Of a DNA stretch of 64,000 nt, positions 33,387-58,925 are shown one piece after another. Source of the stretch: a virus; IMG/VR virus record IMGVR_UViG_3300037264_003220, positions 26,281 to 90,280 of that record, one strand, 5' to 3'. Position numbers and translations under genes: made by a program. Under the pieces are notes generated by a model. That model worked only from the letters and a program-made list of their open reading frames with translations, had not been told where the DNA came from and ran no database searches. Every line of letters starts with the position of its first letter. Position 1 is the stretch's first letter.

Positions 33387-33579
33387 TTTGACTCGATATT
33401 TTGAATTTCTGTCTATGTTCCAACAAATGCGGTGCGCAAAGAACATGACCTGGAGCCGCCTTCTCTTTGCACAGAGGGCATAATCCCATTCTTTTTAAAC
33501 ACTCGTATTGCTGTTTCGCATTACAAGCAAAGACTGAGACTCGTCCATTCCCGTTCGGGCCGCAAGCCGTTTTTTTCAT
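33355..33579 (-). CDS. small zinc-ribbon protein
   Basis: This is a 74-residue basic protein, MKKTACGPNGNGRVSVFACN, with LCPLCKEKAAPGHVLCAPHL as a C-x-x-C...C-x-x-H type zinc site and a basic C-terminus (RRFKRSV). It overlaps the upstream gene's stop by ATGA and therefore belongs to the same operon. It could contact RNA or DNA, but no family is recognised. Confidence 0.5.
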   Translation of the reverse strand: MKKTACGPNGNGRVSVFACNAKQQYECLKRMGLCPLCKEKAAPGHVLCAPHLLEHRQKFKISSQNGIRRFKRSV

Positions 33580-35003
33580 CTTTTGGTAAAGTCTGTCGGA
33601 ACCAAGCCTTTTTCAATGTTGCCAATAATGGCGTCAAAACACCCTTTACAGTCAAACCTGTAATGAGCCAATTTAATCAAGTCCACATCTTTCCGGCTGG
33701 CAAATTTCTTCGCCATTTCAACGCTGACCGCGCTCACTTCGTCCTGGCTCGCAATCTTCTTCGCAAACTCCGGCTCGGCGCTGGCTCGCTTGCTGATGGA
33801 TTCGATAATCGTCTTCGCCAAGTCAGCTTCAGGAACCGATGCTTCGATTTTGACTTCAGCAGTCGTCGGAGCGGCAGTTGCCGTGGTCGTCACGCAATCA
33901 AGGCATGAAGTATAAGCAGCCTGCTTCTTGGTTTTGCCTTTCTGACCCTTGAACCCAGCGTCAGCGATTTTGGCTTCCACGCATTTATCCAGGGCTTCCG
34001 CTTCTTCGCGCGTCTTGGCAACCACGTGGATGCCTTCGTCCCGCTTCATGAATCCGCCCATGGCTTCCTTCCAGCCGCCCATTTGACGAGGTTTCACTCG
34101 GTCAAGAGTGCGGGCAATGGCGGTAATCATCTTGTCGATTCTTTCCACCATGTTATTGGAAGACTCAATCCCGATATGAGCAAGAGCCTTGCCGAACATT
34201 TCCTGGTCGACAGTCTCATTGGTGGCTTGGCAGTAAAACCCGTAGAGAGTGGCATATTCATTCGCCATCTCAGAGTAAGAAGCAAACCGCGAAGGAAGCG
34301 CTGGTTCCGCATCCTGAACTTCAGGATTTTTCAACCAAGCATTGATTTTTTCCAAGCTGGCATCCTTCTCAGTCATCTTCTTGCCTTTCTCTTTGTAATC
34401 TTCGCCGCTTACATCTGATTTATGAGTTTCAGATTTGATGGCGCCTTGGTCGCCTTCCGGCGCCTTGGTCTTTTCTTGATTGCCTTCTTCTTTATATTCC
34501 TCGCCAATCTTTTCATCTTTGGTGGTTTTCTGAGAAATAGATTTCTGGTCTCCGCTCGGTTCATCAAGAACCTTGGTCGACTCTCCATCTTTTTCCTTAA
34601 AGTCATATCCAATGGATTTATCCGTTGTGCCTGGTTTGATATCCTTGTTGGCTACGCCAGGAGTCGCGTCGGCTTTCTTAAGCCATTTCGCTGTCATGGT
34701 CTTGCCTTCAGACATGACATCGAGCGCCGGAGCTTCTGTGGTGGTTTTCTGCGAGATTGCTTTCTGGTCTCCTTCAGGAGCGTTGGTCTTTTCCTGGTTG
34801 TCGACGCGTTTGTATTCCGCGCCAATAGCTTCGTCCGGCTTCGTTGTTTCTTTGGGTTCTGCCTGAGTTCCTTCCGGCTCGTCCATTATTTTCGCTTTAT
34901 CTTCTTCTTTAAATTCTTGCCCAATCGTTGAATCTTCCGTCCCTGGTTTAATGTCCTTGTTAGGAACGCCCGTGGTTACATCTGCTTTTTTAGACCATTG
35001 CAT
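33576..35003 (-). CDS. unknown head-region protein with tandem acidic repeats
   Basis: This 475-residue protein starts MQWSKKADVTTGVPNKDIKP. Residues 3-90 and 107-190 are two copies of one unit (W-x-K-K-A-D-x-T-x-G-V, NKDIKPGT, then IGxxFKE and NQEKTxAPEGDQ), both acidic and probably unfolded. A helical region follows (~215-330), then a short domain with TREEAEALDKCVEAKIADAG. Two Cys pairs (SCLDC, DCKGC) lie near the C-terminus. Both repeats open with the W-S/L-K-K-A signature shared by many genes here. It may be a head-interior or neck protein. I do not recognise a family. Confidence 0.5.
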   Translation of the reverse strand: MQWSKKADVTTGVPNKDIKPGTEDSTIGQEFKEEDKAKIMDEPEGTQAEPKETTKPDEAIGAEYKRVDNQEKTNAPEGDQKAISQKTTTEAPALDVMSEGKTMTAKWLKKADATPGVANKDIKPGTTDKSIGYDFKEKDGESTKVLDEPSGDQKSISQKTTKDEKIGEEYKEEGNQEKTKAPEGDQGAIKSETHKSDVSGEDYKEKGKKMTEKDASLEKINAWLKNPEVQDAEPALPSRFASYSEMANEYATLYGFYCQATNETVDQEMFGKALAHIGIESSNNMVERIDKMITAIARTLDRVKPRQMGGWKEAMGGFMKRDEGIHVVAKTREEAEALDKCVEAKIADAGFKGQKGKTKKQAAYTSCLDCVTTTATAAPTTAEVKIEASVPEADLAKTIIESISKRASAEPEFAKKIASQDEVSAVSVEMAKKFASRKDVDLIKLAHYRFDCKGCFDAIIGNIEKGLVPTDFTKR

Positions 35004-37894: not shown

Positions 37895-38893
37895 TTAAAC
37901 GATGTCGAGTTCAACAACACCAGCGGTGTTATGGATACCCATACCGATTTGTTCCCAGCCGTAAATATCATACTGACCTTGCGGAACGTTATCGAAGATT
38001 TTCACTTCGACTTTTTTCCGTTCAGGCAGACGACCGAGTTTATCAGGTGTAGTAACCACAAACACTTTACCAACTGGATTACGAGTGCTGACAATCAGCT
38101 TCATCCCGAAGATGCTGCCGAAATATCCTGTTTCCACGACAGTGTTCAGTGTTACCTGGTCAATGTCGTTCGACGGGAATTTCAACAGGTCTGCATATTG
38201 CTTGGGGTTCATGAGAACCGTGGAAGCAATGAGCTGATTCGATGTGATGGAACCCACCATGTCGGCCAACACTGTCTTTGTGACAGCGCTAGACGAGAAC
38301 GGTGTGTTCGGGGACACGGCAGAAGCCGCAGCCAACACACGGAAAAACTCATCATCCTCAGCAATCGCCATCGCTATGGCGACGCGCTCTTTGGCGCGGT
38401 CGAACACAGGATAACGACGAACTTGGATGTCTTCATATTTCACGACTTCATCAATCCCCAAAACAAATGTCGGGAACTGCACACGACGAACGTTTGTCTC
38501 AAAGACGGTGGGAGACCCAAGAGCGGCGAGTTTAACCGCGCCGAATTCGGGAATATCAACGTCATAGATAGGGAAGTCACCTTGCGGCATTTCGTCCACA
38601 AGAAGAACCTTTCTATCCACAGAGACATAATCCAAACGAGTCTTCAAGGGCAACTGCATGGAATAAGCCAGTCTACGGAAGCCATTCGGCCCCGAAAGAA
38701 TCTGGGAAAGCGCATCTTCCATCTGCTGGGGCGGAACGCTGGGAAGCAGAGGAGCATTACCCGCAGTGCGGGCAAAGCCTCCATTTCCGAGCTGTCCTGA
38801 ACCAACAGAGGAAGCGGCCTTCATGATTTGGGCAATGAAACGGTCTTTAGCCGCTCCATTTAATTCGCCCATCAGGTTTTGTCCTGGTAGCAT
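37895..38893 (-). CDS. major capsid protein (HK97 fold)
   Basis: This 332-residue protein forms the head shell. The C-terminal part (VETGYFGSIFGMKLIVSTRN, VGKVFVVTTPDKLGRLPERK, YDIYGWEQIGMGIHNTAG) is the P-domain/A-domain signature of HK97-type capsid proteins in many myoviruses. The N-terminal ~50 residues are helical and contain MKAASSVGSG and FARTAGNAP, plausible sites for maturation cleavage by the encoded protease. It follows protease, scaffold and decoration genes, the canonical order. A GGAGA site precedes the ATG and a strong hairpin follows the stop. Confidence 0.88.
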   Translation of the reverse strand: MLPGQNLMGELNGAAKDRFIAQIMKAASSVGSGQLGNGGFARTAGNAPLLPSVPPQQMEDALSQILSGPNGFRRLAYSMQLPLKTRLDYVSVDRKVLLVDEMPQGDFPIYDVDIPEFGAVKLAALGSPTVFETNVRRVQFPTFVLGIDEVVKYEDIQVRRYPVFDRAKERVAIAMAIAEDDEFFRVLAAASAVSPNTPFSSSAVTKTVLADMVGSITSNQLIASTVLMNPKQYADLLKFPSNDIDQVTLNTVVETGYFGSIFGMKLIVSTRNPVGKVFVVTTPDKLGRLPERKKVEVKIFDNVPQGQYDIYGWEQIGMGIHNTAGVVELDIV

Positions 38894-39432: not shown

Positions 39433-40455
39433 TTAGGAGCGAGCTATGGTGTCTTGAGTCCACAGATTTGAGAGGCGTTCGACCACGCTTCCCTGTGCGG
39501 TCTTTTCAGGACTCAGCACAACAGGGAGCACATCTCCTTCACCCTCGTCAAGGCTTCCATATGAGGCCATTCCTTCTTTCGGTGCAACTTCATTTTTCGG
39601 TTGTCCTGCTTGAGAATCTTTAGCTTCGATTTTCTCAACGATGTCCTGCAAGGCAAGCAAGGCTTTTTCGTCGAGACCAGAGAGAGCTTTACGGCAAGCT
39701 TCGAGTTCCGCTTCTTTAACGCCAAGCTCAGTCAGCTCATGGAGAATGCCGTCGATATGTTCGGCGACCACTCTTTGAGCGTCGTCTTCGGCTTTCTTTT
39801 TAAGTTCGGCTTTCGCTTGAGCGGCTTCTTTCTTCGCCAGTTCCGCTTCTCTCATGAGAACGTTCTTTTCTTCGAGCGCTCTCTTTAACAACTTCATCGG
39901 GCCATTTAGATTTTTGGATTTGAGGTCAATTGCTTTGGCAGGTTCGCCAACGCCACCCGCGTCGGGCAGACGATTGAAGAAGTCCTTGATTTTACGACCG
40001 TGCCCAGGAACCGAAGACGGCTTTTCAGCCAATTTTTTATTGGCAGCCACTTCTTCTTCGCTGAGAGCGCTCGTAACTCCGTCTTTGCTCGCGTCTTGAC
40101 GGGGAACTTCCTTCTCGTTGATAGCCCAGTTTGCATAATCAAAGTCTTTGTCGCCGGAAGTCGCAACGCGCTTCAGGTCGGCTTTGACAGTGACTTTCTG
40201 GCTATCCACCCATTTCAGGAATCCATTAAAGGTGTTGCCTGATTCTTTCTTAATCATTTCGCAAATCTGTTCGGGTTCCAAGACCTCAGATTGTTTGCCT
40301 TTCACGATAAGTTTCTGCACTTCAACAGGGACAATGTTTGCGGCTTTAATGACTTTAGCCCGTCCAGACCCTTCGCGAGCGATGAAGAAACTGCGCAGGA
40401 AAGAATCTTTCGGGTTTGCACCATCTTGAACAACGTATTTAAGTGAGAAGTCCAT
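39433..40455 (-). CDS. capsid scaffolding protein
   Basis: This 340-residue, highly charged protein lies between the protease and the decoration/capsid genes, the usual scaffold position. A long predicted coiled coil (about 190-280: LLKRALEEKNVLMREAELAK, then KKEAAQAKAELKKKAEDDAQ) is the expected core of scaffolds that fill the prohead. The N-terminal ~120 residues form a separate folded part. SPEKTAQGS near the C-terminus again shows the K-x-A motif. It is probably degraded or released during maturation, as is general for scaffolds. Confidence 0.75.
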   Translation of the reverse strand: MDFSLKYVVQDGANPKDSFLRSFFIAREGSGRAKVIKAANIVPVEVQKLIVKGKQSEVLEPEQICEMIKKESGNTFNGFLKWVDSQKVTVKADLKRVATSGDKDFDYANWAINEKEVPRQDASKDGVTSALSEEEVAANKKLAEKPSSVPGHGRKIKDFFNRLPDAGGVGEPAKAIDLKSKNLNGPMKLLKRALEEKNVLMREAELAKKEAAQAKAELKKKAEDDAQRVVAEHIDGILHELTELGVKEAELEACRKALSGLDEKALLALQDIVEKIEAKDSQAGQPKNEVAPKEGMASYGSLDEGEGDVLPVVLSPEKTAQGSVVERLSNLWTQDTIARS

Positions 40456-40476: not shown

Positions 40477-42111
40477 TCAGTATTTCGGCGTTTCCGCCGT
40501 GTCTGTTTTCATGTCTATTCCAAGCAACTCGCGCCACCGTGCTATTTTCTGCATTTCAGACATTTCAGGGTTCAGAGGTTCGAGCAAAACGCCCGTCGCT
40601 TTTCCACTTCGATACAACCGAAGCAAATCTTTACCAGCTTCTTTAATCAATTTCATTTCAGGCCCAATTTCAATTGCTGCCGCTGGTTCAGCAGTCTGGG
40701 AGCCTGCATACAAATGAGTCAACAGCACGTTCGATAACGCATGAATCGCCTTATCCAACAATATCGTCGCTGCCGTTCTTGCGCCGTAAAATTCTTCTGG
40801 AGCGCACGCGTCTTGAGGAGGCGCCATAATTTCCTCTTTCACTTTATTGATTTCCTGCACGACTTCATCCGTGTGCTCCACGACTTTTTTCGTAACTTCA
40901 TTAATAATAGGAAGTTGCGCGTCAACAAGAAGACCTGATAACAGCGCGTCTACCTGTCGCATAACTTCTTCAGAAACAATCCCATCTATCTTGGATTTAA
41001 TGGCTTCCTTAATTTTTTCATCAATCTTGTCTCCGACAGGCTTCATTTCTTCCTGAATAACGGTCATGAGGTCAGGAGATGTGACGGGCGCGGTCGGGTC
41101 AATCATGACATTGGATTGTTTCTTGGGAGGGAATGAGGGTTTCTTCTTGGGAATTTTATTGAGAGGGTCTTCAATATTACCGCTGCCGGATGTATTCGAC
41201 GGCATGGCTTGCATGATTTGCTTTGGATTGGCGCCGCCAGAATCAACGGCTGGGTTCCCCTGGAATGTCGAAGGCGATTGAACATTGAGAGCGGTCTTTT
41301 GCAAGCTGGCTCGAAGCGCGAGCCGTTCTTCCGGCGTTAAACGAGCGATAGCCACATCAAGCGTGCAACGCCCATCAGGACATCCCGCCGCAATTGCTTT
41401 TTTACTTTGGTAATCGGCGGCATGGCGGAGAAGGCTCTGCTGTATGCTGGCGAACACTTCAAACACGTGCGCTTCCACATCAGCAGGCTGAGCCACGCCA
41501 GACAACTCCGAGAACGTCACTTTGCGATTGATTTCATGAGCCTTAATACCATCCGGCATTATCCGCCCTTTGCAATAAGCGCCCGACATCGGGTTCATGT
41601 GAACGCACAAATCATTCTGGGTATGCGCGACGTTCCCGCACAGAGAGCACTCCGCTTCTTCAACAGAACACCCCATGGATACTGCGTTAAGGATTCCAGC
41701 TTCAACTTGACGAGCGATATCTGCATGAGCCTTGCGGTCAACGGCAACGAGACACTCAATGTATTTGCCTTCTGGATACCAAACACTGTCAAGAATAATA
41801 CCCTTGGCTTTTTCAATGCTATCACTGTCATGTTCAATATAAAAACCTTTGCCGACAAACGAGCCATACGCCGTCGCCAATTCTTTCTCGTCAAAATAAT
41901 CACCATTGCCATTTGGAACATTGGCTGTGATAGAGCGAGCGCGGAAATAAACAAAATTGTCGGGGTCGTACTCGAATGCCTCTGTCGGCAGGAAGTCGCC
42001 CTTTTTAACAAGTGTCGACTTCTTTACCACATCAGTCCAAGACCATTTTTTTGATGTCGTGTCTTGAGACAAAATATCGGATATTTGCATGGTTGCTCGT
42101 CGTATAAACAT
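40477..42111 (-). CDS. head maturation protease with zinc insert and C-terminal extension
   Basis: This is a 544-residue protein. Residues ~40-210 form the prohead protease domain: ARSITANVPNGNGDYF, GFYIEHDSDSIEKAKG with His94, and GILNAVSMGCSVEEAECS with the likely Ser145 nucleophile. A cluster C155, C158, C169, H171 and C180 forms an inserted zinc-binding loop. The N-terminal tag region (SKKWSWTDVVKKS) resembles the W-T-K-x-A signature of other genes. Residues ~250-544 are an extra helical part (DKIDEKIKEAIKSKIDGIVS), perhaps scaffold-like or a target-recognition arm. It would cleave scaffold and N-terminal propeptides. The start shares a base with the upstream stop; GGAGG is in place. Confidence 0.82.
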   Translation of the reverse strand: MFIRRATMQISDILSQDTTSKKWSWTDVVKKSTLVKKGDFLPTEAFEYDPDNFVYFRARSITANVPNGNGDYFDEKELATAYGSFVGKGFYIEHDSDSIEKAKGIILDSVWYPEGKYIECLVAVDRKAHADIARQVEAGILNAVSMGCSVEEAECSLCGNVAHTQNDLCVHMNPMSGAYCKGRIMPDGIKAHEINRKVTFSELSGVAQPADVEAHVFEVFASIQQSLLRHAADYQSKKAIAAGCPDGRCTLDVAIARLTPEERLALRASLQKTALNVQSPSTFQGNPAVDSGGANPKQIMQAMPSNTSGSGNIEDPLNKIPKKKPSFPPKKQSNVMIDPTAPVTSPDLMTVIQEEMKPVGDKIDEKIKEAIKSKIDGIVSEEVMRQVDALLSGLLVDAQLPIINEVTKKVVEHTDEVVQEINKVKEEIMAPPQDACAPEEFYGARTAATILLDKAIHALSNVLLTHLYAGSQTAEPAAAIEIGPEMKLIKEAGKDLLRLYRSGKATGVLLEPLNPEMSEMQKIARWRELLGIDMKTDTAETPKY

Positions 42112-42712: not shown

Positions 42713-42893
42713 ATTCGGTTATCTGCCTTCCTAATTTTTGTAATTCAACTGCCAATCCAGTCACTTCAGAATAAAAAAGACCCATGTCTTCATCATTCAA
42801 AATCCGCATCAACTGACCAAACGCTCTGTCGACCTGACTCATATAATGCAGACTGTCATTCTCAAATTCGTTCAAAGATTCCAAGCTGCTCAT
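42564..42893 (-). CDS. unknown small protein after portal (possible frameshifted partner)
   Basis: This is a 109-residue ORF. The first ~65 residues (MSSLESLNEFENDSLHYMSQ ... ELQKLGRQITEY) look like a natural helical protein. The rest, after YANEKRTK, is Ser/Gly/Arg-rich and less protein-like, exactly where the next ORF begins in another frame. It starts in an ATGA overlap with the portal stop. It may be a portal-associated chaperone or connector. The tail of the frame should be viewed with caution. Confidence 0.45.
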   Translation of the reverse strand: MSSLESLNEFENDSLHYMSQVDRAFGQLMRILNDEDMGLFYSEVTGLAVELQKLGRQITEYANEKRTKIFEDIDREAGRGVRESGKSAVGRQSQYKNPTGINTSAQPVS

Positions 42894-44785
42894 ATGGCTG
42901 GGCCTTCAGCGCCTGGAGTCGTCGGCAAGGTTTCCTTTTCTTCGGGAGATTCACCCGCGCCTGGCGCTCCTGGCGTCTTGGCTGGCTCAGACAATGGGGG
43001 AGGAAGTTCGCCCATCGGCCCGCCACCCATACCACCAGCCGGAGCTTCATTCAAATCCTTCAGTTTCGGCGGGCGCCGTCCGCCTGGCTTCTTGCTGTCT
43101 GCCTTCTCTTGAACCTGTTCTTTCATGGCAAGGTCATTCAAAATGTCTTGAACCTTCTCACCTTTCAGGAAGCGGTCGCGTAATTCCTTATTCTCAGCGT
43201 CATCAAGGTACGCTTTCTTAAGTTCCTGCCAGTCCTTGTCGAGATAGGTGGCTTCTTCCTTCTGGAACTGGCTCACTATGGTTTTGGATGTCAGCCCGAA
43301 CACGTCATTGATAATTTCCTGCGGGATGCGACCATCATTGCGCAAGCGTAACATCATCTCCTGCTCCTGCGTGTTATTGAGCAGGTTCAACTTCTGCCAG
43401 ATAAAGCTCGGAAGGAAATATTTTTCATCAGGAATGTTGCCGCCGCGAATCTTGATTTTATGCTCGACCTCTGCCTTGGTAGGACGAATCAACTGCTGCT
43501 CGCGAGCCATGGGAAGGAAAATCTTGTATTTGAAAATCTTTTCTATTTCAGCGCGGTCAGTGATGTAACGATGAAACAACATTTTCAGGTTCACGGTTTG
43601 TCCGGCATACGATGGCGCTTCCCCGCCGATAAGTGCTTCATTGGCAAACAAACCCACCATGATGCGCTTGCCCACCCAATCAAACCATGGAATCAAATTC
43701 TCAATCTTGTCCTTTGTCCCCACGTAATCCACGGTAAGACCAAAGTGATAGATGATGTTGTAATCAGGGTCATTCGCCGCCGACACAAGCAACTGTTTAA
43801 ATTTATCGAAATGCTTCTTTGATGGAATCCAGCCTTTGGACTCCGAGCCGAGCTTGAAAATTTTGATGGGGAACATGTGGCGGTCGACGAAAGTATATTG
43901 GAGGTAACGCAGCTTGTCTTCAAACAACAGGTCTTTCAAAACTCGCTTCACCAATGAAAGACCGCGCAACGTGTATTTCGATGTTCGATTCGCAAAGTGA
44001 ACGACCCTGTTCCCATCCAGCATATGCGGCTTGCCTCGCCCAACTGATTCGACGAATTGCTTCGGCATGAGTCCTACAATGGCTTTGTCTATGGGGTCAT
44101 TGGAGCCGACAATCTTTTGAAGCTCTGGGTCGGGGAGGAGAAAGTAAGCGGCAGAATTGGAAACATACGTCCTCTTGATGTCTATATATTCGGGAGGGTA
44201 TTGGTTCCATTCCTGCCACTCGAAATTAGTTTTGTCCCAGTTGCCATACCACACGGACTCGCCAAGCAAATGCTTGTCGCGGAGCATCCATACCGCCATC
44301 TGAAGCAGGTCAAGTTTTTCCTTGGTGTAATTGAAATAAGATTTAACTCCAGCATCATCAACATGAAGTTCAAAATCTGACAGCGGGAACGTGCTATGGA
44401 TGTCGATAACGGAGCCGACATAAGGTTGGAACTTGTAATAGTGACGAAGGCGCTTGTTGACTTCTTTGAGATTGTCTTCAGGAAAGAGAAGGAGAACGGT
44501 ATCCCATAATGGGTCGACATAAAGGAGAGGCGTGCGCACGGTATCTGACGCGGAGCTGCTTTGAAACAACTGCTGGAACTCAGCCGTTCTCTTGAACCCT
44601 TTTCCATCGCCAAGCTGACCGCCGGAGCCTATGCGGTTGAATCCCTGACTTCCTGTCCCATCGGCTTGCGCCTGTTCATAAAGCGCTTCTTTGGCTGATT
44701 CAAGCAGCTCTTGCTGGGCGGCGTTGCGATGTAGGTTCGCGCTTACGCCATCACCAACGAAATCTTCTTCAGCAGTTTTTGCCAC
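42890..44785 (-). CDS. portal protein
   Basis: This 631-residue protein forms the dodecameric portal at one head vertex. Typical portal features are TPLLYVDPLWDTVLLLFPED at the start of the clip region, YLQYTFVDRHMFPIKIFKLG in the wing, WFDWVGKRIMVGLFANEALI, and NNTQEQEMMLRLRNDGRIP near the crown. The last ~90 residues are Pro/Gly-rich and flexible. MAKTAEEDF at the start and GFKRTAEFQQ near 65 carry the K/R-T-A-E pattern discussed in the findings. It overlaps genes on both sides. Confidence 0.85.
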   Translation of the reverse strand: MAKTAEEDFVGDGVSANLHRNAAQQELLESAKEALYEQAQADGTGSQGFNRIGSGGQLGDGKGFKRTAEFQQLFQSSSASDTVRTPLLYVDPLWDTVLLLFPEDNLKEVNKRLRHYYKFQPYVGSVIDIHSTFPLSDFELHVDDAGVKSYFNYTKEKLDLLQMAVWMLRDKHLLGESVWYGNWDKTNFEWQEWNQYPPEYIDIKRTYVSNSAAYFLLPDPELQKIVGSNDPIDKAIVGLMPKQFVESVGRGKPHMLDGNRVVHFANRTSKYTLRGLSLVKRVLKDLLFEDKLRYLQYTFVDRHMFPIKIFKLGSESKGWIPSKKHFDKFKQLLVSAANDPDYNIIYHFGLTVDYVGTKDKIENLIPWFDWVGKRIMVGLFANEALIGGEAPSYAGQTVNLKMLFHRYITDRAEIEKIFKYKIFLPMAREQQLIRPTKAEVEHKIKIRGGNIPDEKYFLPSFIWQKLNLLNNTQEQEMMLRLRNDGRIPQEIINDVFGLTSKTIVSQFQKEEATYLDKDWQELKKAYLDDAENKELRDRFLKGEKVQDILNDLAMKEQVQEKADSKKPGGRRPPKLKDLNEAPAGGMGGGPMGELPPPLSEPAKTPGAPGAGESPEEKETLPTTPGAEGPAI

Positions 44786-48294: not shown

Positions 48295-48689
48295 TAAAAT
48301 TCAGCCTGCCATTGTTCTTTGTACCAATCCAAACTCTTTGGCGCCAACTGTTTCCAACCTTCTTCTCCAGGCTCAATGCTAACTTTAACATTTGAAATAT
48401 GAACTGTCTGAGACTCCTGCTTGTAATCATCAGTAGAATCATCAAACACTTCGTATTCCACGGTAATGTCCTGGTCAGGGACAGTCACCATAACACCATC
48501 AATGCCCCAATCACGAACGTCAAGCTGCGCCGACCATTTCAACGTAATTGGCTTGACTGATTCCATCCCAGCTTCTTTATAATTCAATTCCACATCAGAC
48601 GTTTCAAAATTCATTGCGCTGGCTGAACGAACCCATGCTGGCGCCTGAAGTTCAGCAACAATATCTTTTGTTGTTCGAGTCCAGTCCAT
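48294..48689 (-). CDS. W-T-R-tagged beta-rich protein
   Basis: This is a 131-residue protein, MDWTRTTKDIVAELQAPAWV. After the tag-like start come many beta strands (VKPITLKWSAQLDVRDWGID, ITVEYEVFDDSTDDYKQESQ, VHISNVKVSI), and a short helix with SLDWYKEQWQAEF ends it. It is tightly linked to the W-T-K-tagged gene upstream (TAATG). No family was recognised. It may be one of a set of packaged small domains. Confidence 0.45.
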   Translation of the reverse strand: MDWTRTTKDIVAELQAPAWVRSASAMNFETSDVELNYKEAGMESVKPITLKWSAQLDVRDWGIDGVMVTVPDQDITVEYEVFDDSTDDYKQESQTVHISNVKVSIEPGEEGWKQLAPKSLDWYKEQWQAEF

Positions 48690-48943
48690 TAACGACCTTC
48701 ACCGTGAAGCAAATCTTCGCCCGTGTTCTCATTGATAATAGTCCAACGTAAGTTATCATTTACCCATTCCTGTTCTTCCGTGGTCAAATCAAGACCACTA
48801 ATTAAATTGCGCCATTGCTCGCCGACAAAATCTTCAAGCGCTTCCGATAAAGCATAGGCAATTTCACGTTGTCGTATATCATCAAGTACGACTTCTGTTT
48901 CTTTTTCGCCTTCGGGTATTTCTTTAGCTGTTTTTGTCCACAT
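48689..48943 (-). CDS. small W-T-K-tagged acidic protein
   Basis: This 84-residue protein starts MWTKTAKEIPEGEKETEVVL. Its first codons and ribosome site (from AAGGGATAATTT on) are identical over 29 bases to those of the next gene upstream. The body is acidic and helical (REIAYALSEALEDFVGEQWR, TTEEQEWVNDNLRWTI). Apart from the start, the two proteins are unrelated. The function is unknown. Confidence 0.5.
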   Translation of the reverse strand: MWTKTAKEIPEGEKETEVVLDDIRQREIAYALSEALEDFVGEQWRNLISGLDLTTEEQEWVNDNLRWTIINENTGEDLLHGEGR

Positions 48944-48955
48944 AAATTATCCCTT
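48927..48955 (-). repeat. 29-base direct repeat, copy 1
   Basis: This is an exact copy of the bases at 49155-49183. It covers the end of one gene, the ribosome site AAGGGA and the codons for M-W-T-K-T-A of the next. Together the copies bracket a 74-residue gene. Confidence 0.8.
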
Positions 48956-49171
48956 GCCTCCATATCCTCGTGCATCCAACTCTTGTTGTAATTGTTCAGT
49001 AGTCATATGTCGATAGCCTTGAAATCCATCACGCAAGCAACTCTCAATCCAATCCGGCGAACCTTGGTCAATCGCAATTTTCCAATCAGATTCAATCAGG
49101 ATATCGACGAGTTTTTCTTTGGCTTCATCAAATTCATTTTGTTTCTTATGAAGGGCTGTTTTTGTCCACAT
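48947..49171 (-). CDS. small W-T-K-tagged protein bracketed by direct repeats
   Basis: This is a 74-residue protein, MWTKTALHKKQNEFDEAKEK. After the tag a helical body follows (LVDILIESDWKIAIDQGSPD, MTTEQLQQELDARGYGGKG). The last part (HMTTEQLQQELDARGY) recalls short helical peptides in many phage proteins. The gene lies between two exact 29-base direct repeats, so it can be gained or lost by recombination. The function is unknown. Confidence 0.5.
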   Translation of the reverse strand: MWTKTALHKKQNEFDEAKEKLVDILIESDWKIAIDQGSPDWIESCLRDGFQGYRHMTTEQLQQELDARGYGGKG

Positions 49172-49183
49172 AAATTATCCCTT
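49155..49183 (-). repeat. 29-base direct repeat, copy 2
   Basis: This is identical to 48927-48955. It contains the end of the endonuclease gene (V-K-G-stop), the ribosome site and the first six codons of the 74-residue gene. The match in coding and non-coding bases points to copying rather than convergence. Confidence 0.8.
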
Positions 49184-51305: not shown

Positions 51306-52903
51306 AATTCGCCAGCCGCTTCCGAATGGGCTTGCTGTCTTTCTCTGAAAAATGCCTTGGCAAATCCTTCTTCACTGACCGCGTAAATCTTATTGTCAGA
51401 GAATTTGGAAGTGTCATCAAACACCACTTGCCCTTCCGCGATAACAAACACCAAAAGAGCTGGCTTGGTATTGATTTCTTCCGGCAAGGAATTATCAATG
51501 ACATCCACGAGCACGGAAAGAATGGCGTTGGCGCTAAAGAATTGGTCGACATCTTGTCCAGGCACTTGAATATCATTCTCAAGCTTCTCCGACAACTCGC
51601 GACCATGGTATTTGAAAGAGCTTACCCGCATGATGAAATTCCGCAACACAGAATTTTTTTGCTTGATGTATTCAAGAACCTTCGCTACGTTTTCTGTTGC
51701 AGCCTTGTCCACGTCAACTTCTTCCTGCTGCGCGTCAAAGTATTCCGATGGCGTCACCTGGTTCTTTTCGTCATCAAACGGCTTGCTCTTGATGCCGTCT
51801 TCGACTTCCATAAGCTTTTCCGACATACCTGTTTCTGTCGCCTTATCCTGAGAGTCGGTCGCTGGCTTCAAAGTCGTGTCCGGCTCGCCAGGGACGAGAG
51901 CGGTGCGAATCCAATCTGCTTCACTCGCAGTAATGTGCCCAAACTCAAGCGCTCCCTCAATCATAATTCGCACGTCATTGGTTGACGTTCCTCTCATACT
52001 GAGCTGGCGATAAAGGCTGGAGGCTCGTTCGCTAAGTTGTTTTGCAGACCCTTCCCTGCCAACGATGCCGTTCTCCGCAAATTCATCAGCCAACTCAGGA
52101 AACTTATCAGCAAGCTGTTTGAAATAGGAATCCCACTCAGCAACCTCTCTCCAGCTCATGCTTTCTGCACTCTGCGCTGATTGCCAATCAACTGCAATCT
52201 GTCTGGCTTCTCCGGCTGTCGCCACTTCTTCAACTGGCTTTCTGGCAGATGCCTGCAAAAGTATGCTCGGATTTGAGTCCAGGGTTGACAGCTCCGGCCC
52301 TTCATCTTTGAAGTCTTTCATCACGTCTTTCGTGAGAGGTTCGTCGAACAACATGGCTTCCTTCACATGGTCTTTTAAGCCTGCGATAGCCTTGTCGGAA
52401 GTGATGTACATTTCCACGACATCACGCTGAGTATCTCCCTTCTGACCAAACAGGGCGAAACCCCAGTTGTAGGGATTGATGAAGTAGAAGTCATAAGTCT
52501 TGTCTTTGGCGACGCCCCAGCCCATGGATATGCCTGGAATCGTGGGAGGAGTCGATAAGAACTTGCCAGGGTTGAGGAGGTCATAAGGATGGATGCCAGT
52601 CAAGTGCTTGAACGCCCGCACGATTTCATCCCGCTGATAGCCCAAAGAAATCAAGTAGCCTTCCATGAACTTATACGAAAAGCGCCCCTCGTTAATCATT
52701 CTCTTGAGGTTTCTTTCCAACTCAATACGCTCAGGACGAGTGTTGGTTCCGGCATAAAAAACGTCAGCATACTGATGACTGATGTTCCAGTCACGCGCTG
52801 ACGCTTTTCGCTTGGTTTCTTCTTTGGTTTTCAAATCGTTAAGAACGGGGTCAAATTCTTCCCCATCAAAATTGACATCTTCTTTTTCAAGCCAAGTTGA
52901 CAT
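51302..52903 (-). CDS. unknown multidomain protein with tag-like start
   Basis: I chose ATG 52903 (MSTWLEKEDVNFDGEEFDPV) because AGGAGG lies 8 bases before it; an ATG six bases earlier is too close. The 533-residue protein has RKASARDWNISHQYADVFYA, a helical part (ELERNLKRMINEGRFSYKFM) and PPTIPGISMGWGVAKDKTYD. Another tag-like ESMSWREVAEWDSYFKQL lies near 265, and the C-terminus (LSVLVDVIDNSLPEEI, ALLVFVIAEGQVVFDDT) forms an alpha/beta domain. K-A-S-A and Q-A-S-A segments separate the parts, as in the giant protein next to it. No family was recognised. Confidence 0.45.
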   Translation of the reverse strand: MSTWLEKEDVNFDGEEFDPVLNDLKTKEETKRKASARDWNISHQYADVFYAGTNTRPERIELERNLKRMINEGRFSYKFMEGYLISLGYQRDEIVRAFKHLTGIHPYDLLNPGKFLSTPPTIPGISMGWGVAKDKTYDFYFINPYNWGFALFGQKGDTQRDVVEMYITSDKAIAGLKDHVKEAMLFDEPLTKDVMKDFKDEGPELSTLDSNPSILLQASARKPVEEVATAGEARQIAVDWQSAQSAESMSWREVAEWDSYFKQLADKFPELADEFAENGIVGREGSAKQLSERASSLYRQLSMRGTSTNDVRIMIEGALEFGHITASEADWIRTALVPGEPDTTLKPATDSQDKATETGMSEKLMEVEDGIKSKPFDDEKNQVTPSEYFDAQQEEVDVDKAATENVAKVLEYIKQKNSVLRNFIMRVSSFKYHGRELSEKLENDIQVPGQDVDQFFSANAILSVLVDVIDNSLPEEINTKPALLVFVIAEGQVVFDDTSKFSDNKIYAVSEEGFAKAFFRERQQAHSEAAGEL

Positions 52904-53006
52904 TGCCATTTCCTCCTGAAATATAGTGTATTTTTTACCATTTTTCCACAACAGCTTGTGGAATCTCTGTTATTCTCCACAACCTATTGGTGTTCTCCGT
53001 CGAGAC
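52904..53006 (-). promoter_or_regulatory. intergenic region with perfect hairpin
   Basis: This is one of the few real gaps in the operon. It contains an 8-base perfect inverted repeat (TTCCACAA / TTGTGGAA at 52944-52963) with a 4-base loop. On the minus strand an A-rich stretch follows it, then TACACTATATTTC before the AGGAGG. No U-run follows the stem, so a terminator is unlikely; a processing site, protein-binding site or promoter is possible. Confidence 0.35.
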
Positions 53007-53195
53007 TTATTTTCCAGAGCAAGACTTCAGAGCCTGGAGAGACTTCTCGTCAAGCGCGGACTCAAGACTAAAACCTTTTTTCACAACTTTAAACTCTCGC
53101 CTCGGCGGTCGCGTGTCTCGTCTCACCATCGGCTGCGGCATCTTGCGAGCCACATTATTCAAGGCGTCTATGGCTTTGTCCAAACTTCCCTTCAT
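53007..53195 (-). CDS. unknown small basic protein
   Basis: This 62-residue protein, MKGSLDKAIDALNNVARKMP, starts in an ATGA overlap with the giant gene's stop. It is basic (VRRDTRPPRREFKVVKKGF) with a short helix at each end. The first residues (KGSLDKA) repeat a string found in the giant protein near residue 962. The function is unknown. Confidence 0.45.
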   Translation of the reverse strand: MKGSLDKAIDALNNVARKMPQPMVRRDTRPPRREFKVVKKGFSLESALDEKSLQALKSCSGK

Positions 53196-56100
53196 ACTGG
53201 CATGGCTTCCTTTTCTTTGATTGTGAACGTGGCGCCCGTGGGCTGGTCATATGTGTCCAGAATAACGGCGTCGTATTTCTTATCTTCCGCGATAAGCGCC
53301 GCGTGCCGCTTCACTATCTGCGCTTTGTCGCCGTTATACAACCACACTTTGTCGCCTTCACGAAACTTATACCCAGCGTTCTTAAAGAACTCTGCCGTGG
53401 ATTGGATTTTCAAGTTCTGCTTCTTCCGTTTCAGCCTGCGGGATTCTTTGTCAAGCTCCCACGCGCTGCCGGACAAGTCAGAGCTTTTGAATTGGTCGAA
53501 GTATTTGGCATAACGCTTTTGAGACGAATTAACTTCTTTGTCTTCCGGCGCCAATGTAAACACGGTCTTGCCTGTTTCGGCAAGGTCTTCAAGAGGAGAC
53601 CAAACTTGATAATTCGGATACCACCAAATATTGACGCCTTCTTCGGCGCGTAAATGACCAGCGTCATCAAGCACTGCATCAGAAAGAATCGGAGCCGACG
53701 TAAGAGCGCCGATGTCTTCTGGGTTGACCCACATTAAACCAGCGTCAGTGACAGGCTCAAAAACTTCATACATGAGGTTATCACTCGTATCGCCTGCCGC
53801 AACTTTTTCTTTTAATTCAGCTTGACCTTCAGCGTCAATGGAAATTTCTAAATCACTATTTGGTAATTGCTTCCAAACCGTAATCCAATACGATGCTTTC
53901 TTATCCAACGCCGCATGACGTTCCGGCGGGATACGGTCTGTCTCCCATATTTTATTGATGGGACGCGTCACGATTCCGCTGCCATCTTCCATATCAATTT
54001 TCATATTGCCTTCGGCGTCCGGCTCCGATACTGCCCATCCATACCAGCCATCGACTTCAAGATACTTGCCAATCCACGGCCCGCGCTTTGGGTCTATGTG
54101 GGCAGTTTTTTCCACGGCGCCACCAGCTTGTCTAGTCACGACCACATCATGCCCTTCATGTTCACTCTTTCTATTTGGGAAGAAAGGCATTTCACAAGTC
54201 CGACACCAATATTCATCAGCGCCAGCTTGACGCGCCACGACAGATTGCTTCTGCACGAATTCCATGGCTTGGTCAATCATTTGTTGACGACGTTCGCCTT
54301 CGGCAGCATCAAACGCTCCACCTGTCCACATGGACAAAGCGCTTTCCACGGCTTTGCGTTCGTCGCCCTTATCAAGCTCAAGGCATTCTTTGTAAACATC
54401 TAGAAAGGAAACTTCCTCGGCGTTCTTGCCAAATGAAGCCGTCTTCGTCGCAATGGTATCAAGCAACTTATGCACGGCTTCGGTCACGTCTTCGCCGCGC
54501 ACATACGCTGCTTCAGCAACTTTATAAACCTTTCCAATGTCCATGATATTGATTTGATATCCATACACGGCATCCTGAACAACTCTGTCCAATTCAGCCT
54601 GTTGCTTCTTGGGCAACTTGGATTCTCTTACCGCAGCTATCTTGGTGACTTGCGAAGTTTCGCAATGAGGGCAATAGATAGTTTCATTGGCGCGATTACG
54701 AACAAATTTATATCCACATTTTTCACATTGAAAATTCGTAGGCTCGCCCGCCGCTGCCGTTACTTCTGTCTTCGCCGCTTCCTCAGCTGCTTTGGCTTTT
54801 TCTTCCTTCTTGGTCTTGCGCGTCTCCTGCTGGTCTTTAAGACGCTTTTCCAATTTCTCAAGCGCGTCCACTGTTGAAGCAATCTCAGATGGGTCGGCTT
54901 TGTCCACGTCCAAATCCTTCAGTTTCCGGCGCAACGACTTCACTTGGTCAGACAAGCCAGCTCTCCGGCTCCCGCCAAGCTTCTTATTTACGGCGGCGGC
55001 AATTTCTTGAGCATTGTCTTCCATCCAACGAACGAATGCAGGATTATCCAAATCGCCAACAGCATCCGCTCCGCCGCTCACTTCACTCATTGCCCAATTA
55101 TAAAGCCCTTCATCATTGAGCACCCATTCCGTGAGCGAGTCCAAATCATTGGGAGCAATTTCAAGAATAGCCTTCCGAAGCGCACCCGTTTCATCGAACC
55201 CTTCTTCGGCAGTATCCGCCAAGATGCCTTCCCATTCTTTTTGTGCTTCTGCTTCAGACGCATATCCCTTTGATTCAACAAATCCCTGTTCACCTGTCCA
55301 AAGAATGATAAACGGATTCGCCTCGAACCATTGCTTTTCTTCGGCAGTAAGCGGAGCAACTTCAAGCTCGGTCGCAACCTTCTCGGCTTCCTCGGCAGTC
55401 ACACTGCGTAACAGACCATACCAGCCGCCTGTTTCAACGCTGCCAGCTTCTTCGCCAAGTCCATCCAAACTCATAGTCCAAAGGATTTCGTCAATGATGG
55501 TGCTGAACTTTCCTGGCCCCTTGCGTCTGATTCCTTCTGCCGCCGCTTTGTCCAATGAGCCTTTGACTGTATGCTCGCGGTCTAACTTAGCCCACTCCGC
55601 ATACGGCATATCATAAAGAGTTTTGGGGTCGACGCCCATTTTCTGAGCAACCTCATCTTTGCGTTCCTTCTGATAAATCATAGAGTCCTTGTCTTCAATC
55701 CCATAAAATCGTGCCTGCTTCATACTGCCCTCCAAATAAAGTTTGTTGTCGTCTCCAATGACAAGATTTATTTCACCAAACGAATGCGCAATCTCAGTCA
55801 GCTTATCACCAACTTCGCCAAGACCTCTATCCCAAAACCCAGCACCATGCCCATTGCGAGTCAACCAGAAGTCATGCCCAGCCTGTTCCTCATCAATACC
55901 ATTCAGCAGCTCGCCCGCTTTCTCTTTGAACGCCGCGCAATCTGCCTTGGCTTTATCCATACTCTCCGGCGATATGTCGGCGAAATCATAATTCTTGTCA
56001 AGCGGGTCTCCGCCTTGCTCATCAGATTGGTCTAACTCAGACCACAACGCCGCTTCAAGATAGGCGCCAACGAACTTGCCCAAGCCTTGATACGATTCAT

Positions 56101-58447
56101 CGGCAGCTGTCTTTGTTGTGCCGCCGCCAGCAATAAGGTCAGCCACTTCGCGGAACGCATCAACCTCGACATCTTTCTCTAAAGACAAAGCATGTTCGCC
56201 ATTCACGCTCACATCAATGGCGCCATCATCCGCATAAGAGAATGTAAACTGCCAATCTTCCGTATCAATCGTTCCTGCTGGAGGATTCGGCAAACGCATC
56301 TCGTTCATGTAATCAAAGACTTTGGGCGGCAGCTGCTCAAAACGCAAAGTGACAGAGCCTCCCTGCGCAGCCGTCTTCTGTTTCACTTCCTTGCGAACCT
56401 TGCTGTTGCAACGCTCGCAAAAGTCAGAGCCATCCTCTTTAATGCCCAAGCCGCATTGAATACACAGATTGTCCTGCGCACTGATAATCTTCTTTTCCTC
56501 AAACTCTTTGCGATGCTCGCGCTCTTGCTCAATGGTATGCTCAAGCACTTTCTGAAGGTCTGGGCTGGCGTCTTCCTTCTGCCCACGGTATTCATCTATG
56601 GCAGCTTGCTCAAGCTCCACATCGCGTTTCACTATTTCTTCGTCGCGGCTGGCGGTCTTTGAACTTGCTTCTGTGCCCATATCGCTTTCGGCTATGATTT
56701 CGGCAACAATTTTATTGGCGTCAGCACCGTAATGCTCAGAAACTTCCTTCATCCCGCCACCGTAATAAGACTTCACAGCATCTTCAAGTTGTTGTGCTGA
56801 ATAATCTTTCAAATCAATATCGAATAACACTCCATGGTCAAACACCATAAACTCATTTTCAGATATTTTCTTTACCCACTGATTCGTATCTTCATCTGTG
56901 CGAGTAAACCCATTTTGTTTGAAATAAGATTCGCCGTACATTCCTTCATCGCGACTGGCGGTCTTGTTCCCATGCTTCCTACCAAGATATTCACCGAAAT
57001 TACCATCAATGCTGGCGTTGCCGTGGTCAGATATCTGCCACACATTCGGGTAATAATTCTCCTTCTGCATCCAAGCATAAATGTCGCCATAGAACTTGTC
57101 CCAATCATCATGCAGCTTGGCGATTTTTTTGCCGCCTGCGTAAGCGACAGTCTCGGCGCCCAACGTGCCTTCGCCTTGAATAATGACATCTTCTTCAGAT
57201 GGGCCGCCATTTATCCCCATGTCATCTATAATTTCGTCATCAGGGATGCCATGTTCGTCGGCGAAGTCGGCTTTCTTATTTAATGACGCTTTCTTGGTAT
57301 CCCGCCACGTCGACCAATCCTGAAAATACTCAGCCGCCATTTCCATGGTCACATCAATACCAGCTTCATTGTCAGCGATATCTCGGATATAACTAATCAA
57401 ATCATCTTGGTCAGGAACCATATGCGCCTTGGCAAAATAATCCTGTGACTCTTGAAGAACCTTGTCTGTCCATTCTGGGTCGCCAACGCCAGGCGCGTCA
57501 GCGTCTTCGCCCATTTCATCAAGCGCCGTCACGAGCCGCTTCACCATACCAGCTTTCTTCTCGCCGCCTGGTTTAGAGCCATAATAAAAATAAGCCACGG
57601 TCACTTGGTTGTTTTGCATATCTGGTTCTTTAACGGCATACCCACTCCACGCCGTCACGGTATCAAAACCGATATACCCAAGATTCGCCAACTCGTCATT
57701 CTCCACGACCACGAACTCTCCCAAGTCAAACACGTCGCCATCAAACCTAAAGAAATTCCCCTGACCAGATTCTTCTGATTTAAAGTAATCAACCGTTTTC
57801 TTTTCTTCATCAGTCAATTCGTCAAAGTCAACCAACGGCACGGTTTCTTCCTTTTGAATGATGAGTTGGTCATCGGCTTGTTTCTTCATGCCAGCTTCTT
57901 TCTTAAACGAGCATTGCACTTGCTCCGGCTTCAGGTCTTTATGTTCAGCCAAATATTTCTCTTTGGCTTCTTGACAGGTCTTCGCCCATGTCGTGGTTGC
58001 CTTGTATTCCTTATCAACAAAGATTTCTATTTTGGGATGGCTGCGTTTATCGCCGTAGGCAGCTTCTAACTTCGGCAATCTTCCCGTGCCTTCACACGCC
58101 GGACATTCCTTGCCATCCATATGCCCTTCACCGCCGCATTCGGTGCAGGTTTCCCAGTCCTTGGCAACCTTTGTCCAGGAAGCAGCCTTCACAATCTTAA
58201 GATGATATCGCGCACCACAATCTTCACATTCCTCCACCTTGGAATAAGCGTCAGGGGAATTGAAAGTTGTTTTATGACCAAGCTCGTTATGTTTCTGATA
58301 AGGAGTTTTCTCGCTCGCCGACGCCATGCAACCGCAAGCACCGTTGCACTTGGCGCATGTTTCCGATTCCTGCTTTATCTTGGCAGGAGCCATTCTGTCT
58401 TTCGGTTCGTTCATCAATCGTTTCTTCGGCGGAATTAAATTATCCAT
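53192..58447 (-). CDS. giant string-of-domains protein (candidate polyprotein)
   Basis: I chose ATG 58447 (MDNLIPPKKRLMNEPK) behind AAAGGAGAG, giving 1751 residues; the upstream extension lies in the endonuclease. About 15 small domains are joined by K-K/T-A-S/A/D linkers near residues 88, 298, 386, 496, 598, 692, 780, 1336, 1448 and 1517. Visible parts are Cys pairs (31-76), a tag-like SWTKVAKDW (90-98) and a DnaJ-type zinc region (101-122). A short two-helix ferritin-like segment (608-648) is followed by a zinc ribbon (662-680). GHDFWLTRNGHGAGFWDR lies at 857-874, a coiled coil at 1165-1230, and zinc ribbons at 1241-1262 and 1415-1433. No membrane segment is visible. I infer a virion-packaged or cleaved protein. 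Confidence 0.6.
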   Translation of the reverse strand: MDNLIPPKKRLMNEPKDRMAPAKIKQESETCAKCNGACGCMASASEKTPYQKHNELGHKTTFNSPDAYSKVEECEDCGARYHLKIVKAASWTKVAKDWETCTECGGEGHMDGKECPACEGTGRLPKLEAAYGDKRSHPKIEIFVDKEYKATTTWAKTCQEAKEKYLAEHKDLKPEQVQCSFKKEAGMKKQADDQLIIQKEETVPLVDFDELTDEEKKTVDYFKSEESGQGNFFRFDGDVFDLGEFVVVENDELANLGYIGFDTVTAWSGYAVKEPDMQNNQVTVAYFYYGSKPGGEKKAGMVKRLVTALDEMGEDADAPGVGDPEWTDKVLQESQDYFAKAHMVPDQDDLISYIRDIADNEAGIDVTMEMAAEYFQDWSTWRDTKKASLNKKADFADEHGIPDDEIIDDMGINGGPSEEDVIIQGEGTLGAETVAYAGGKKIAKLHDDWDKFYGDIYAWMQKENYYPNVWQISDHGNASIDGNFGEYLGRKHGNKTASRDEGMYGESYFKQNGFTRTDEDTNQWVKKISENEFMVFDHGVLFDIDLKDYSAQQLEDAVKSYYGGGMKEVSEHYGADANKIVAEIIAESDMGTEASSKTASRDEEIVKRDVELEQAAIDEYRGQKEDASPDLQKVLEHTIEQEREHRKEFEEKKIISAQDNLCIQCGLGIKEDGSDFCERCNSKVRKEVKQKTAAQGGSVTLRFEQLPPKVFDYMNEMRLPNPPAGTIDTEDWQFTFSYADDGAIDVSVNGEHALSLEKDVEVDAFREVADLIAGGGTTKTAADESYQGLGKFVGAYLEAALWSELDQSDEQGGDPLDKNYDFADISPESMDKAKADCAAFKEKAGELLNGIDEEQAGHDFWLTRNGHGAGFWDRGLGEVGDKLTEIAHSFGEINLVIGDDNKLYLEGSMKQARFYGIEDKDSMIYQKERKDEVAQKMGVDPKTLYDMPYAEWAKLDREHTVKGSLDKAAAEGIRRKGPGKFSTIIDEILWTMSLDGLGEEAGSVETGGWYGLLRSVTAEEAEKVATELEVAPLTAEEKQWFEANPFIILWTGEQGFVESKGYASEAEAQKEWEGILADTAEEGFDETGALRKAILEIAPNDLDSLTEWVLNDEGLYNWAMSEVSGGADAVGDLDNPAFVRWMEDNAQEIAAAVNKKLGGSRRAGLSDQVKSLRRKLKDLDVDKADPSEIASTVDALEKLEKRLKDQQETRKTKKEEKAKAAEEAAKTEVTAAAGEPTNFQCEKCGYKFVRNRANETIYCPHCETSQVTKIAAVRESKLPKKQQAELDRVVQDAVYGYQINIMDIGKVYKVAEAAYVRGEDVTEAVHKLLDTIATKTASFGKNAEEVSFLDVYKECLELDKGDERKAVESALSMWTGGAFDAAEGERRQQMIDQAMEFVQKQSVVARQAGADEYWCRTCEMPFFPNRKSEHEGHDVVVTRQAGGAVEKTAHIDPKRGPWIGKYLEVDGWYGWAVSEPDAEGNMKIDMEDGSGIVTRPINKIWETDRIPPERHAALDKKASYWITVWKQLPNSDLEISIDAEGQAELKEKVAAGDTSDNLMYEVFEPVTDAGLMWVNPEDIGALTSAPILSDAVLDDAGHLRAEEGVNIWWYPNYQVWSPLEDLAETGKTVFTLAPEDKEVNSSQKRYAKYFDQFKSSDLSGSAWELDKESRRLKRKKQNLKIQSTAEFFKNAGYKFREGDKVWLYNGDKAQIVKRHAALIAEDKKYDAVILDTYDQPTGATFTIKEKEAMPV

Positions 58448-58460
58448 TGAAATCTCTCCT

Positions 58461-58925
58461 TTAATGCAAAGCTGCGACAGCTTCCTGATACATCGCGCTC
58501 GCCTCTTGTTCGCTGTTAAAGCTCCCAAGGTTCTTATTTTTTCCCGAAAATCTTATTTGGGCAATCCATTTGTTACGTTTTTTATCCCAAGTCACGCCAA
58601 TGTATTTTGAATAAGTTTTACCATTCCTTCTCGCAGTTCGATTAGAACTATTGACCCGTTGAGTCACAATTCTTAAATTTTCTCTCTGATTATTTAAGCC
58701 GTCTCCATCCTTATGGTCAACCATCATGCCTTTGATACGAGGGAACCCAATAATAAAATGGTGCATATATTCTGCTCTTTGAACCCCATCAACAGTATTT
58801 ACATGACGCGCAGCATAAAAAACATTTCGACTCTTAACGGCGAACCAATTTAATGAATTCAAAATATCAAAAATACTATCATCAACTATTGCCACTTTAC
58901 CTTTGGTAAGTTCAATTTCTTTCAT
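58461..58925 (-). CDS. HNH homing endonuclease with AP2-like domain
   Basis: This is a 154-residue protein. Residues ~40-95 form an HNH_3-type nuclease (EYMHHFIIGFPRIKGMMVDH, then KDGDGLNNQRENLRIVT). The C-terminus (KYIGVTWDKKRNKWIAQIRF, GKNKNLGSFNSEQEASAMYQ) is an AP2-like DNA-binding domain. It lies between the two largest accessory genes, overlapping the upstream one by 14 bases, and is followed by TAAAGGAGAG and the giant protein's ATG. The gene is A+T rich. It is the only one of the seven endonucleases whose stop lies before the next ribosome site. Confidence 0.88.
   Translation of the reverse strand: MKEIELTKGKVAIVDDSIFDILNSLNWFAVKSRNVFYAARHVNTVDGVQRAEYMHHFIIGFPRIKGMMVDHKDGDGLNNQRENLRIVTQRVNSSNRTARRNGKTYSKYIGVTWDKKRNKWIAQIRFSGKNKNLGSFNSEQEASAMYQEAVAALH

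Follow-up and report, generated by a model that had tools for sequence, protein, structure and literature searches.

We analysed a 64,000-nucleotide stretch of viral DNA (the window; bases 26281-90280 of IMG/VR virus record IMGVR_UViG_3300037264_003220, which totals 90,280 bases), and we report that its giant late gene P0001 probably encodes a virion polyprotein that would be cut in trans, at [KR]-x-A sites, by the phage's own maturation protease. P0001 (53192..58447 of the window, minus strand; ATG at 58447, stop at 53192-53194) has 1751 codons, lies in the late head-gene region and has intact orthologues in two related contigs, G001 and G002. A first-pass annotation, made from the letters alone, had given the location and the 1751-residue length of this frame correctly and had read the product as some 15 small domains whose linkers are cleavage sites for the head maturation protease. 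The cleavage-site reading is supported, on purely computational grounds, by module shuffling with edges at the motif, by the occurrence of the motif in head proteins, by the identity of the protease and by distant relatives. Separate segments have distinct PHROG and Pfam matches, and together with the shuffling these show several distinct domains in one polypeptide. The modules number about 20, not 15.

The linker motif is far more frequent in P0001 than its composition predicts. K-[KT]-A-[SAD] is found 8 times where composition-preserving shuffles give 0.5 (0/1000), and for the looser [KR]-[TKRQSNV]-A the count is 23 where 7.5 are expected; in other genes of the same genome (about 15,000 residues) the looser form shows no excess, with 42 occurrences against 51 expected. 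A plain composition effect was rejected by both the shuffle and the control-gene tests. The motif positions first proposed were all recovered, 1-2 residues off at most, with the P1 alanines, after which the cut would fall, at residues 387, 393, 497, 599, 693, 781, 1337, 1449 and 1518. Also as proposed, KTA↓SRDE (the arrow marks the presumed cut) is present in two exact copies, at residues 495-501 (56945..56965, minus strand, as are all parts of P0001) and 597-603 (56639..56659), the second aligning with TKTA↓GRDE and KRKA↓DRDA in the relatives. The pattern K-[KT]-A-[SAD] is thus present as first described, but the true motif is broader, [KR]-x-A with a hydrophobic residue preferred two positions before the K or R, and the stretch from 781 to 1337 carries variant forms only. 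The recurrence every 60-120 residues claimed for it did not hold, because the spacing is irregular, with modules of 33-131 residues and with some linkers that are double sites.

These double sites consist of two [KR]-x-A motifs exactly 6 residues apart (KxASLxKxA type), and P0001 has 5 of them against 0.26 expected: KAASWTKVA, KEAGMKKQA, KKA↓SLNKKA↓D (residues 385-393, 57269..57295), KTA↓SFGKNA↓E (residues 1335-1343, 54419..54445) and RHA↓ALDKKA↓S (residues 1510-1518, 53894..53920). Over ten polyproteins of five genomes, 14 such pairs occur against 1.7 expected, and control genes have 1 against 1. The extended motif [GSA]-[FLWM]-x-[KR]-x-A occurs 7 times in P0001 against 0.69 expected and twice in 16,138 control residues against 3.8, an excess that is descriptive only, because the motif was partly derived from the same sequences; in the distant contig G004, where it was found after the motif had been defined, the count is 5 against 0.31.

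To place P0001 among its relatives, we compared it with G001 (146,629 bases) and G002 (144,307 bases), which were found in IMG/VR with the protease as bait; the search of IMG/VR with P0001 alone, whose patterns missed these relatives, found none, and scans with the major capsid protein (MCP) and with the C-terminal module returned only the same two contigs again and nothing from bacterial genomes. The orthologues, of 2320 (G001) and 2444 (G002) residues, begin at an equivalent ATG (MDN/MDK...EPKD..AP.KI.QESETC) and share the same terminal segments with P0001. The N-terminal segment (residues 1-43, 58319..58447), constant in all three and 63% identical to G001 in a block that ends at residue 43, may be a head-targeting leader, and the conserved module of residues 1648-1751 (53195..53506) is C-terminal in all three. 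Between these constant ends, modules are reordered, duplicated, lost or gained; the phrog_1915 module, for example, lies at residues 782-917 in P0001, 1207-1346 in G001 and 184-326 in G002.

The edges of the shuffled blocks coincide with the motif. Of 106 homology-block ends, 59 lie at most 8 residues from a [KR]xA, against 28.8 expected (z=4.9, 0/2000 common shifts); the block ends come from overlapping pairwise comparisons and are not independent, a dependence that the common-shift null preserves. In the same test the association was absent or not significant for [DE]xA, [KR]x[LIV], [KR]xG and [KR]xxA. One insertion can be followed directly: the single GMKKTA↓AEGI of G001 corresponds in the window to GSMKQA↓, 57 residues and GSLDKAA↓AEGI, so that the 57-residue module (residues 913-969, 55541..55711) is bracketed by two sites in the window and missing from G001.

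The remaining modules vary in kind. Near the N-terminus are a DnaJ-type Cys-rich (zinc) module (residues 96-144, 58016..58162; weak PF00684, phrog_3931 at E=6e-5), found in G001 at residues 633-690, and a phrog_1845-like module (residues 192-299, 57551..57874), found in G002 at 1289-1408. The module of residues 394-497 (56957..57268) recurs in G001 (1079-1141), in G002 (1478-1540) and in the distant phage G018, and a helical-pair (ferritin/COQ7-like) module (residues 600-657, 56477..56650) is 84% and 75% identical in the relatives, where it stands in other contexts. A zinc-ribbon module ending in QKTA↓A (residues 661-693, 56369..56467) is missing at this place in the G001 polyprotein. Further along lie the phrog_1915 module (HDFWLTRNGHGAGFWDRGLG; residues 782-912, 55712..56104), flanked by KTA↓A and MKQA↓R, and a module common to G001 (residues 970-1090, 55178..55540; 1335-1465 in G001). 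They are followed by a coiled-coil-like module (residues 1164-1235, 54743..54958), which is duplicated in G001, single in G002 and weakly matched in G005, G010 and G018, by a second zinc ribbon (residues 1236-1271, 54635..54742; Zn_ribbon_8, E=0.01) and by the module of residues 1519-1640 (53528..53893). A Pfam scan of P0001 found no peptidase domain and, up to E=1, no LPD, metallopeptidase, ART or ParB-type polyvalent domain, and a PDB sequence search with P0001 gave zero matches. By eye, a module of the window's 549-residue protein (51302-52951; AREIAVDWQSAQ...FAENGIVG) looks like one within the giant protein of G002 (L017:10836-18170), a likeness which suggests that modules also move between different late genes.

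At least two of the P0001 modules exist as free-standing proteins in other phages. The first-pass annotation had suggested that the block with FWLTRNGHGAGFWDR occurs elsewhere on its own, and this proved right: the module matches positions 9-140 of the 141 in the phrog_1915 profile (E=2e-33) and stands alone in many phages. Other small-protein families matched are phrog_3931 (59 positions), phrog_1845 (93) and, weakly, phrog_3762 (50). In all, P0001 has matches at E<=0.01 in 450 isolated-phage records; among the matches listed nearly all are to the phrog_1915 module, most of them at residues ~790-905. A tblastn search of isolated phages with residues 385-786 returned nothing. The ends of the free-standing proteins, extrapolated onto P0001, fall close to the predicted cuts. 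Most phrog_1915 homologues span about 774-786 to 905-914 (Hena1 785-906, KP2025 786-905, JC01 775-908, LAV_00216 774-911), and the predicted cuts flanking the module come after residues 781 and 912; two further homologues have N-terminal extensions (to 742 and 703) with similar C-termini (914 and 906). In Sphingobium phage Lacusarx, two P0001 modules are the adjacent small genes LAV_00216 and LAV_00215, the latter extrapolating to 1521-1640 against predicted cuts after 1518 and 1647. The phrog_1915-type gene lies near the genome end in several phages, and in CcrBL9 within the terminal repeat; such genome-end homologues may be early genes.

The same site appears in the head proteins of the phage (all sites on the minus strand). 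In the MCP it is GFARTA↓G (residues 39-44, 38762..38779), at the end of a propeptide that is missing from gp27 of Bacillus phage G and from the LR745208 MCP, and 6-7 residues before the start point of these two proteins; its variants are GFARSA↓G (G001 and G002), GFTRSA↓G (L029), GFSRTA↓S (L032), GLQRQA↓G (L030) and GLKKKA↓S (L053). The portal has GFKRTA↓E (residues 63-68, 44582..44599; in relatives GFKRQA↓D, GFERTA↓Q, GFTREA↓A and GFSRQA↓N), and the scaffold-like protein has EKTA↓Q near its C-terminus (39496..39504; in relatives DKTA↓Q and EKTS↓Q). A presumed self-cleavage site of the protease, SLQKTA↓LN (41290..41307), lies just beyond the protease domain (ERTALN and DKSALN in relatives). 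In the head-protein sites P3 and P1 are kept and P2 and P1' vary, as would be expected of a protease that, like SPN3US gp245, reads P3-x-P1. Since the module joints share the K-x-A signature of the presumed MCP and portal cut points, a signature derived from conservation and not from sequenced N-termini, the capsid-maturation protease very probably chops P0001 as well.

The signature is also found at the very start of proteins encoded on the minus strand of the window. Two small free-standing genes begin MWTKTA↓KEI (48689..48943) and MWTKTA↓LHK (48947..49171), a 475-residue protein (33576..35003) begins MQWSKKA↓DVT, a leader kept in both relatives, and has a second site WLKKA↓D, and the N-terminal leader of the protease, MFIRRA↓T, is kept in G001 and G002. 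The six-residue length of the leader equals that of the hexapeptide between double sites, and the linkers may thus have arisen from the leaders of genes that became fused.

The protease gene (40477..42111, minus strand) encodes a protease domain at residues about 48-221, with catalytic His94 and Ser145, and a C-terminal region. Both catalytic residues are invariant in an alignment of 41 sequences, and residues about 50-210 of the AlphaFold model score above 90 in the predicted local distance difference test (pLDDT). A Foldseek search with this model gave T4 gp21 as the top match (5jbl, prob 1.00, E=9e-4), followed by herpesvirus proteases. By fold, His94 and Ser145, the head maturation protease that had been placed at 40-42 kb is of the T4-gp21/herpesvirus type. 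A C-x2-C...C-x-H cluster at residues 155-171, with Cys155, Cys158 and Cys169 invariant and His171 nearly so, looks like a putative zinc knuckle insert in this T4-gp21-type prohead protease.

The linker type extends well beyond the closest relatives. We found 65 related loci; the distant contigs G018, G010 and G004 also encode giant proteins among their late genes, in which the modules are for the most part different but the linkers are of the type found here (SLNKDA, SLDKQA, SLNKEA, SLQKEA, SIEKEA, SMKKEA). Seven polyproteins of G010 and G018 contain 66 [KR]-x-A-[SADE] motifs against 24.7 expected and 7 six-residue double sites against 0.76. Modules in these distant chains include 2'-5' RNA ligase-like 2H phosphoesterase, low-molecular-weight phosphotyrosine phosphatase and HAD-like domains. 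In a large subgroup of relatives the protease forms the N-terminus of an 1800-2200-residue protein with [KR]xA at up to 2.7 times expectation, for example 50 against 18.9, as expected of a chain that cuts itself. One such locus is L073:9812-15613, and similar ones (L068, L072, L078, L081, L083, L067) likewise show the protease fused to a KxA-rich chain of about 1900 residues, with z up to 8. The 2693-residue G010 polyprotein (L099:10262-18343) has several W[IV]xPxG-type module copies between KxA linkers and ends near a low-molecular-weight phosphotyrosine phosphatase. Myrna gp97 (L023:7728-11363, from a cluster C mycobacteriophage), annotated as a tape measure, has a maturation protease domain and 31 KxA against 15.6 expected, and the tape-measure label is probably a misannotation. 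In L064, L069, L084, L087 and others, the portal gene, the protease gene or both are broken by long in-frame intein-like stretches.

The observations are best accounted for by a chain that is assembled whole and taken apart in the head. About 20 modules would be translated as one chain, with a constant N-terminal segment and C-terminal module, and this chain probably becomes part of the prohead. The protease would cut after the Ala of [KR]-x-A, preferring (G/S/A)-(F/L/W/M)-x-(K/R)-x-A↓(S/A/G/D/E), and it apparently uses the same P3-x-P1 site to trim the MCP, the portal and itself and to cut the scaffold. Double sites would release a hexapeptide, such as SLNKKA, and the freed modules would remain in the head and be delivered with the DNA. 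We infer the cleavage of P0001, its prohead packaging, its delivery and the roles of its modules; packaging of the products is suggested by the gene position and by DarA_C (PF18789, above the gathering score) in the G001 sister polyprotein. New modules may enter by insertion beside a KxA linker, so that the array would evolve like a cassette string.

The alternative that survives best is that P0001 is a polyvalent-type protein, packaged and delivered uncut, whose K/A-rich linkers are just flexible disordered joints. There is precedent in the known polyvalent proteins, some of which are delivered whole (PMC5512222). The linkers are K-, A- and S-rich, and the reversed motif A-x-[KR] also lies near module edges, more weakly (z=2.7), as K/A-rich disordered linkers would lead one to expect. 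The reversed motif weighs against the polyprotein reading, as do three further points. Some module edges in P0001 lack [KR]xA; [KR]xA is a weak motif with several matches inside modules, such as that at residue 1025 in a confidently modelled helix; and the structure prediction, a check named in the first-pass annotation, is not decisive. The AlphaFold model, covering residues 590-1095 (one third of the chain, from a four-row alignment), has a mean pLDDT of 44.6 and is weak over most of its length. The blocks that hold the boundary sites 599, 693, 781, 912, 969 and 1093 have pLDDT 23-36, against 75 for the block with the in-module KxA at 1025; because the model is weak overall, the low values at the linkers are compatible with unstructured linkers and do not establish them. 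However, the order and spacing of [KR]-x-A are specific, given that [KR]..A and [KR].G are not significantly associated with module edges, a fixed six-residue double site and an extended motif are unexpected in generic linkers, and the same motif stands at the expected cut positions of non-homologous head proteins. We therefore consider uncut delivery unlikely.

Less probable still is a role of the motif as a docking or head-targeting tag, carried once by each module, which binds the scaffold or the protease with no need for internal cutting. Some small genes carry the motif as the six-residue N-terminal leader MWTKTA, and N-terminal targeting propeptides are used by T4 and SPN3US (PMC7411985). 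Known targeting propeptides are, however, removed by the protease at their end, so that tag and cut site coincide, and the MCP site lies just ahead of where the propeptide-less relatives start. We give slightly less credence again to processing by a host protease, or after delivery in the host cell, instead of by the prohead protease. Such post-delivery processing has been proposed by Iyer and colleagues for polyvalent proteins with embedded peptidases (PMC5512222), but P0001 has no detected Pfam peptidase domain and its sites agree with those in the MCP and portal of the phage itself. A chance open frame or assembly artefact can be rejected with near certainty, as frames of 5.2-7.3 kb stay open in three diverged genomes, with modules ~38-85% identical, and we found no point in its favour.

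Several known systems resemble parts of this arrangement. Herpesvirus assemblin cuts after Ala, often before Ser (x-x-A↓S). It has the same fold as the protease described here, but its substrates are its own precursor and the scaffold rather than a chain of unrelated modules. The T4 scaffold gp22 is one head protein cut at many sites to internal peptides by the prohead protease, but its products are scaffold debris and not shuffled folded modules with free-standing homologues. The T4 prohead protease, whose gp21 fold the protease at 40477-42111 matches, has the motif L/I-x-E, and the [KR]-x-A motif differs both from this and from the A-x-E of SPN3US. The SPN3US prohead protease (gp245) reads P3-x-P1 in that form (PMC10052503). 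The internal proteins and Alt of T4 and the ejection proteins of SPN3US are likewise head proteins that the prohead protease matures before their ejection (PMC7411985, PMC10052503). P0001 carries a presumed cleavage motif common to the MCP, as processed ejection proteins of the T4, SPN3US and P1 type do; those proteins of T4 and SPN3US have one removable propeptide each, whereas in P0001 there are about 20 modules, with numerous sites inside the chain. DarA of phage P1 is packaged in the head, trimmed by the P1 prohead protease and ejected (PMC12810830; for the Dar system also PMC9024508). The DarA_C domain of the G001 sister polyprotein recalls it, but DarA is a single protein, and the Pfam scan detected no DarA_C in the window's own sister copy.

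Polyvalent proteins, as described by Iyer et al. 2017 (PMC5512222), share with P0001 the multidomain chain, the position beside virion genes, the rearrangement between relatives and the presumed co-delivery with DNA, and their operational analogy with viral polyproteins has already been drawn there. They differ in that the P0001 modules are mostly small, zinc-ribbon-like or without assigned role, with no LPD or metallopeptidase domain detected, and in that P0001 has a repeated cut-site linker common to the MCP and portal and would be processed in trans, by the prohead protease, not by an embedded peptidase. In its repeated protease-type sites between modules, P0001 resembles a virus polyprotein in the general sense. 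The components are of known kinds, namely polyvalent proteins and ejection proteins matured by a prohead protease; in open-licence full texts we found no description of a small-module array whose joints carry the presumed sites of the capsid protease, and only the polyvalent, SPN3US and P1 papers turned up.

P0001 is encoded with the virion structural genes of a contractile-tailed phage, between the block of MCP (37895-38893; match to Bacillus phage G gp27, PDB 6wkk), scaffold-like protein (39433-40455), protease and portal (42890-44785) at 37-45 kb and the sister polyprotein (58912-62181, minus strand); the tail sheath gene lies at 15766-17118. The sister, directly upstream of P0001, has 1089 residues; its N-terminal part is nucleotidyltransferase-like and its linkers include SWTRTA↓Q. 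Between the two lies a homing-type endonuclease gene of the HNH/AP2 kind (58461-58925); G001 lacks it, and its two polyprotein genes almost abut. Homing-type endonuclease-like genes are interspersed among the late genes at 47035-47658, 49175-49900, 50685-51305 and 58461-58925, those at 47035-47658 and 50685-51305 being paralogues (32% identical). A tRNA search found none.

We regard it as evenly balanced whether phages related in their head genes to Bacillus phage G captured free-standing proteins behind a K-x-A leader, chained them and now release them inside the prohead, by means of the maturation protease, as an easily reshuffled, head-delivered payload. If the polyprotein reading is true, the polyprotein strategy familiar from RNA viruses has a virion counterpart in double-stranded DNA phages. 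A single late gene, packaged once, could then bring many small proteins into the head at equal stoichiometry, their release being switched on by the capsid protease. The reading would also explain the junk-like look of the very large unannotated late open reading frames in phages related to Bacillus phage G, supply a rule by which to read them, cut at [KR]-x-A, and provide a searchable list of candidate host-takeover or anti-defence modules. A KxA-reading protease with an extended context would be usable as a sequence-specific tool.

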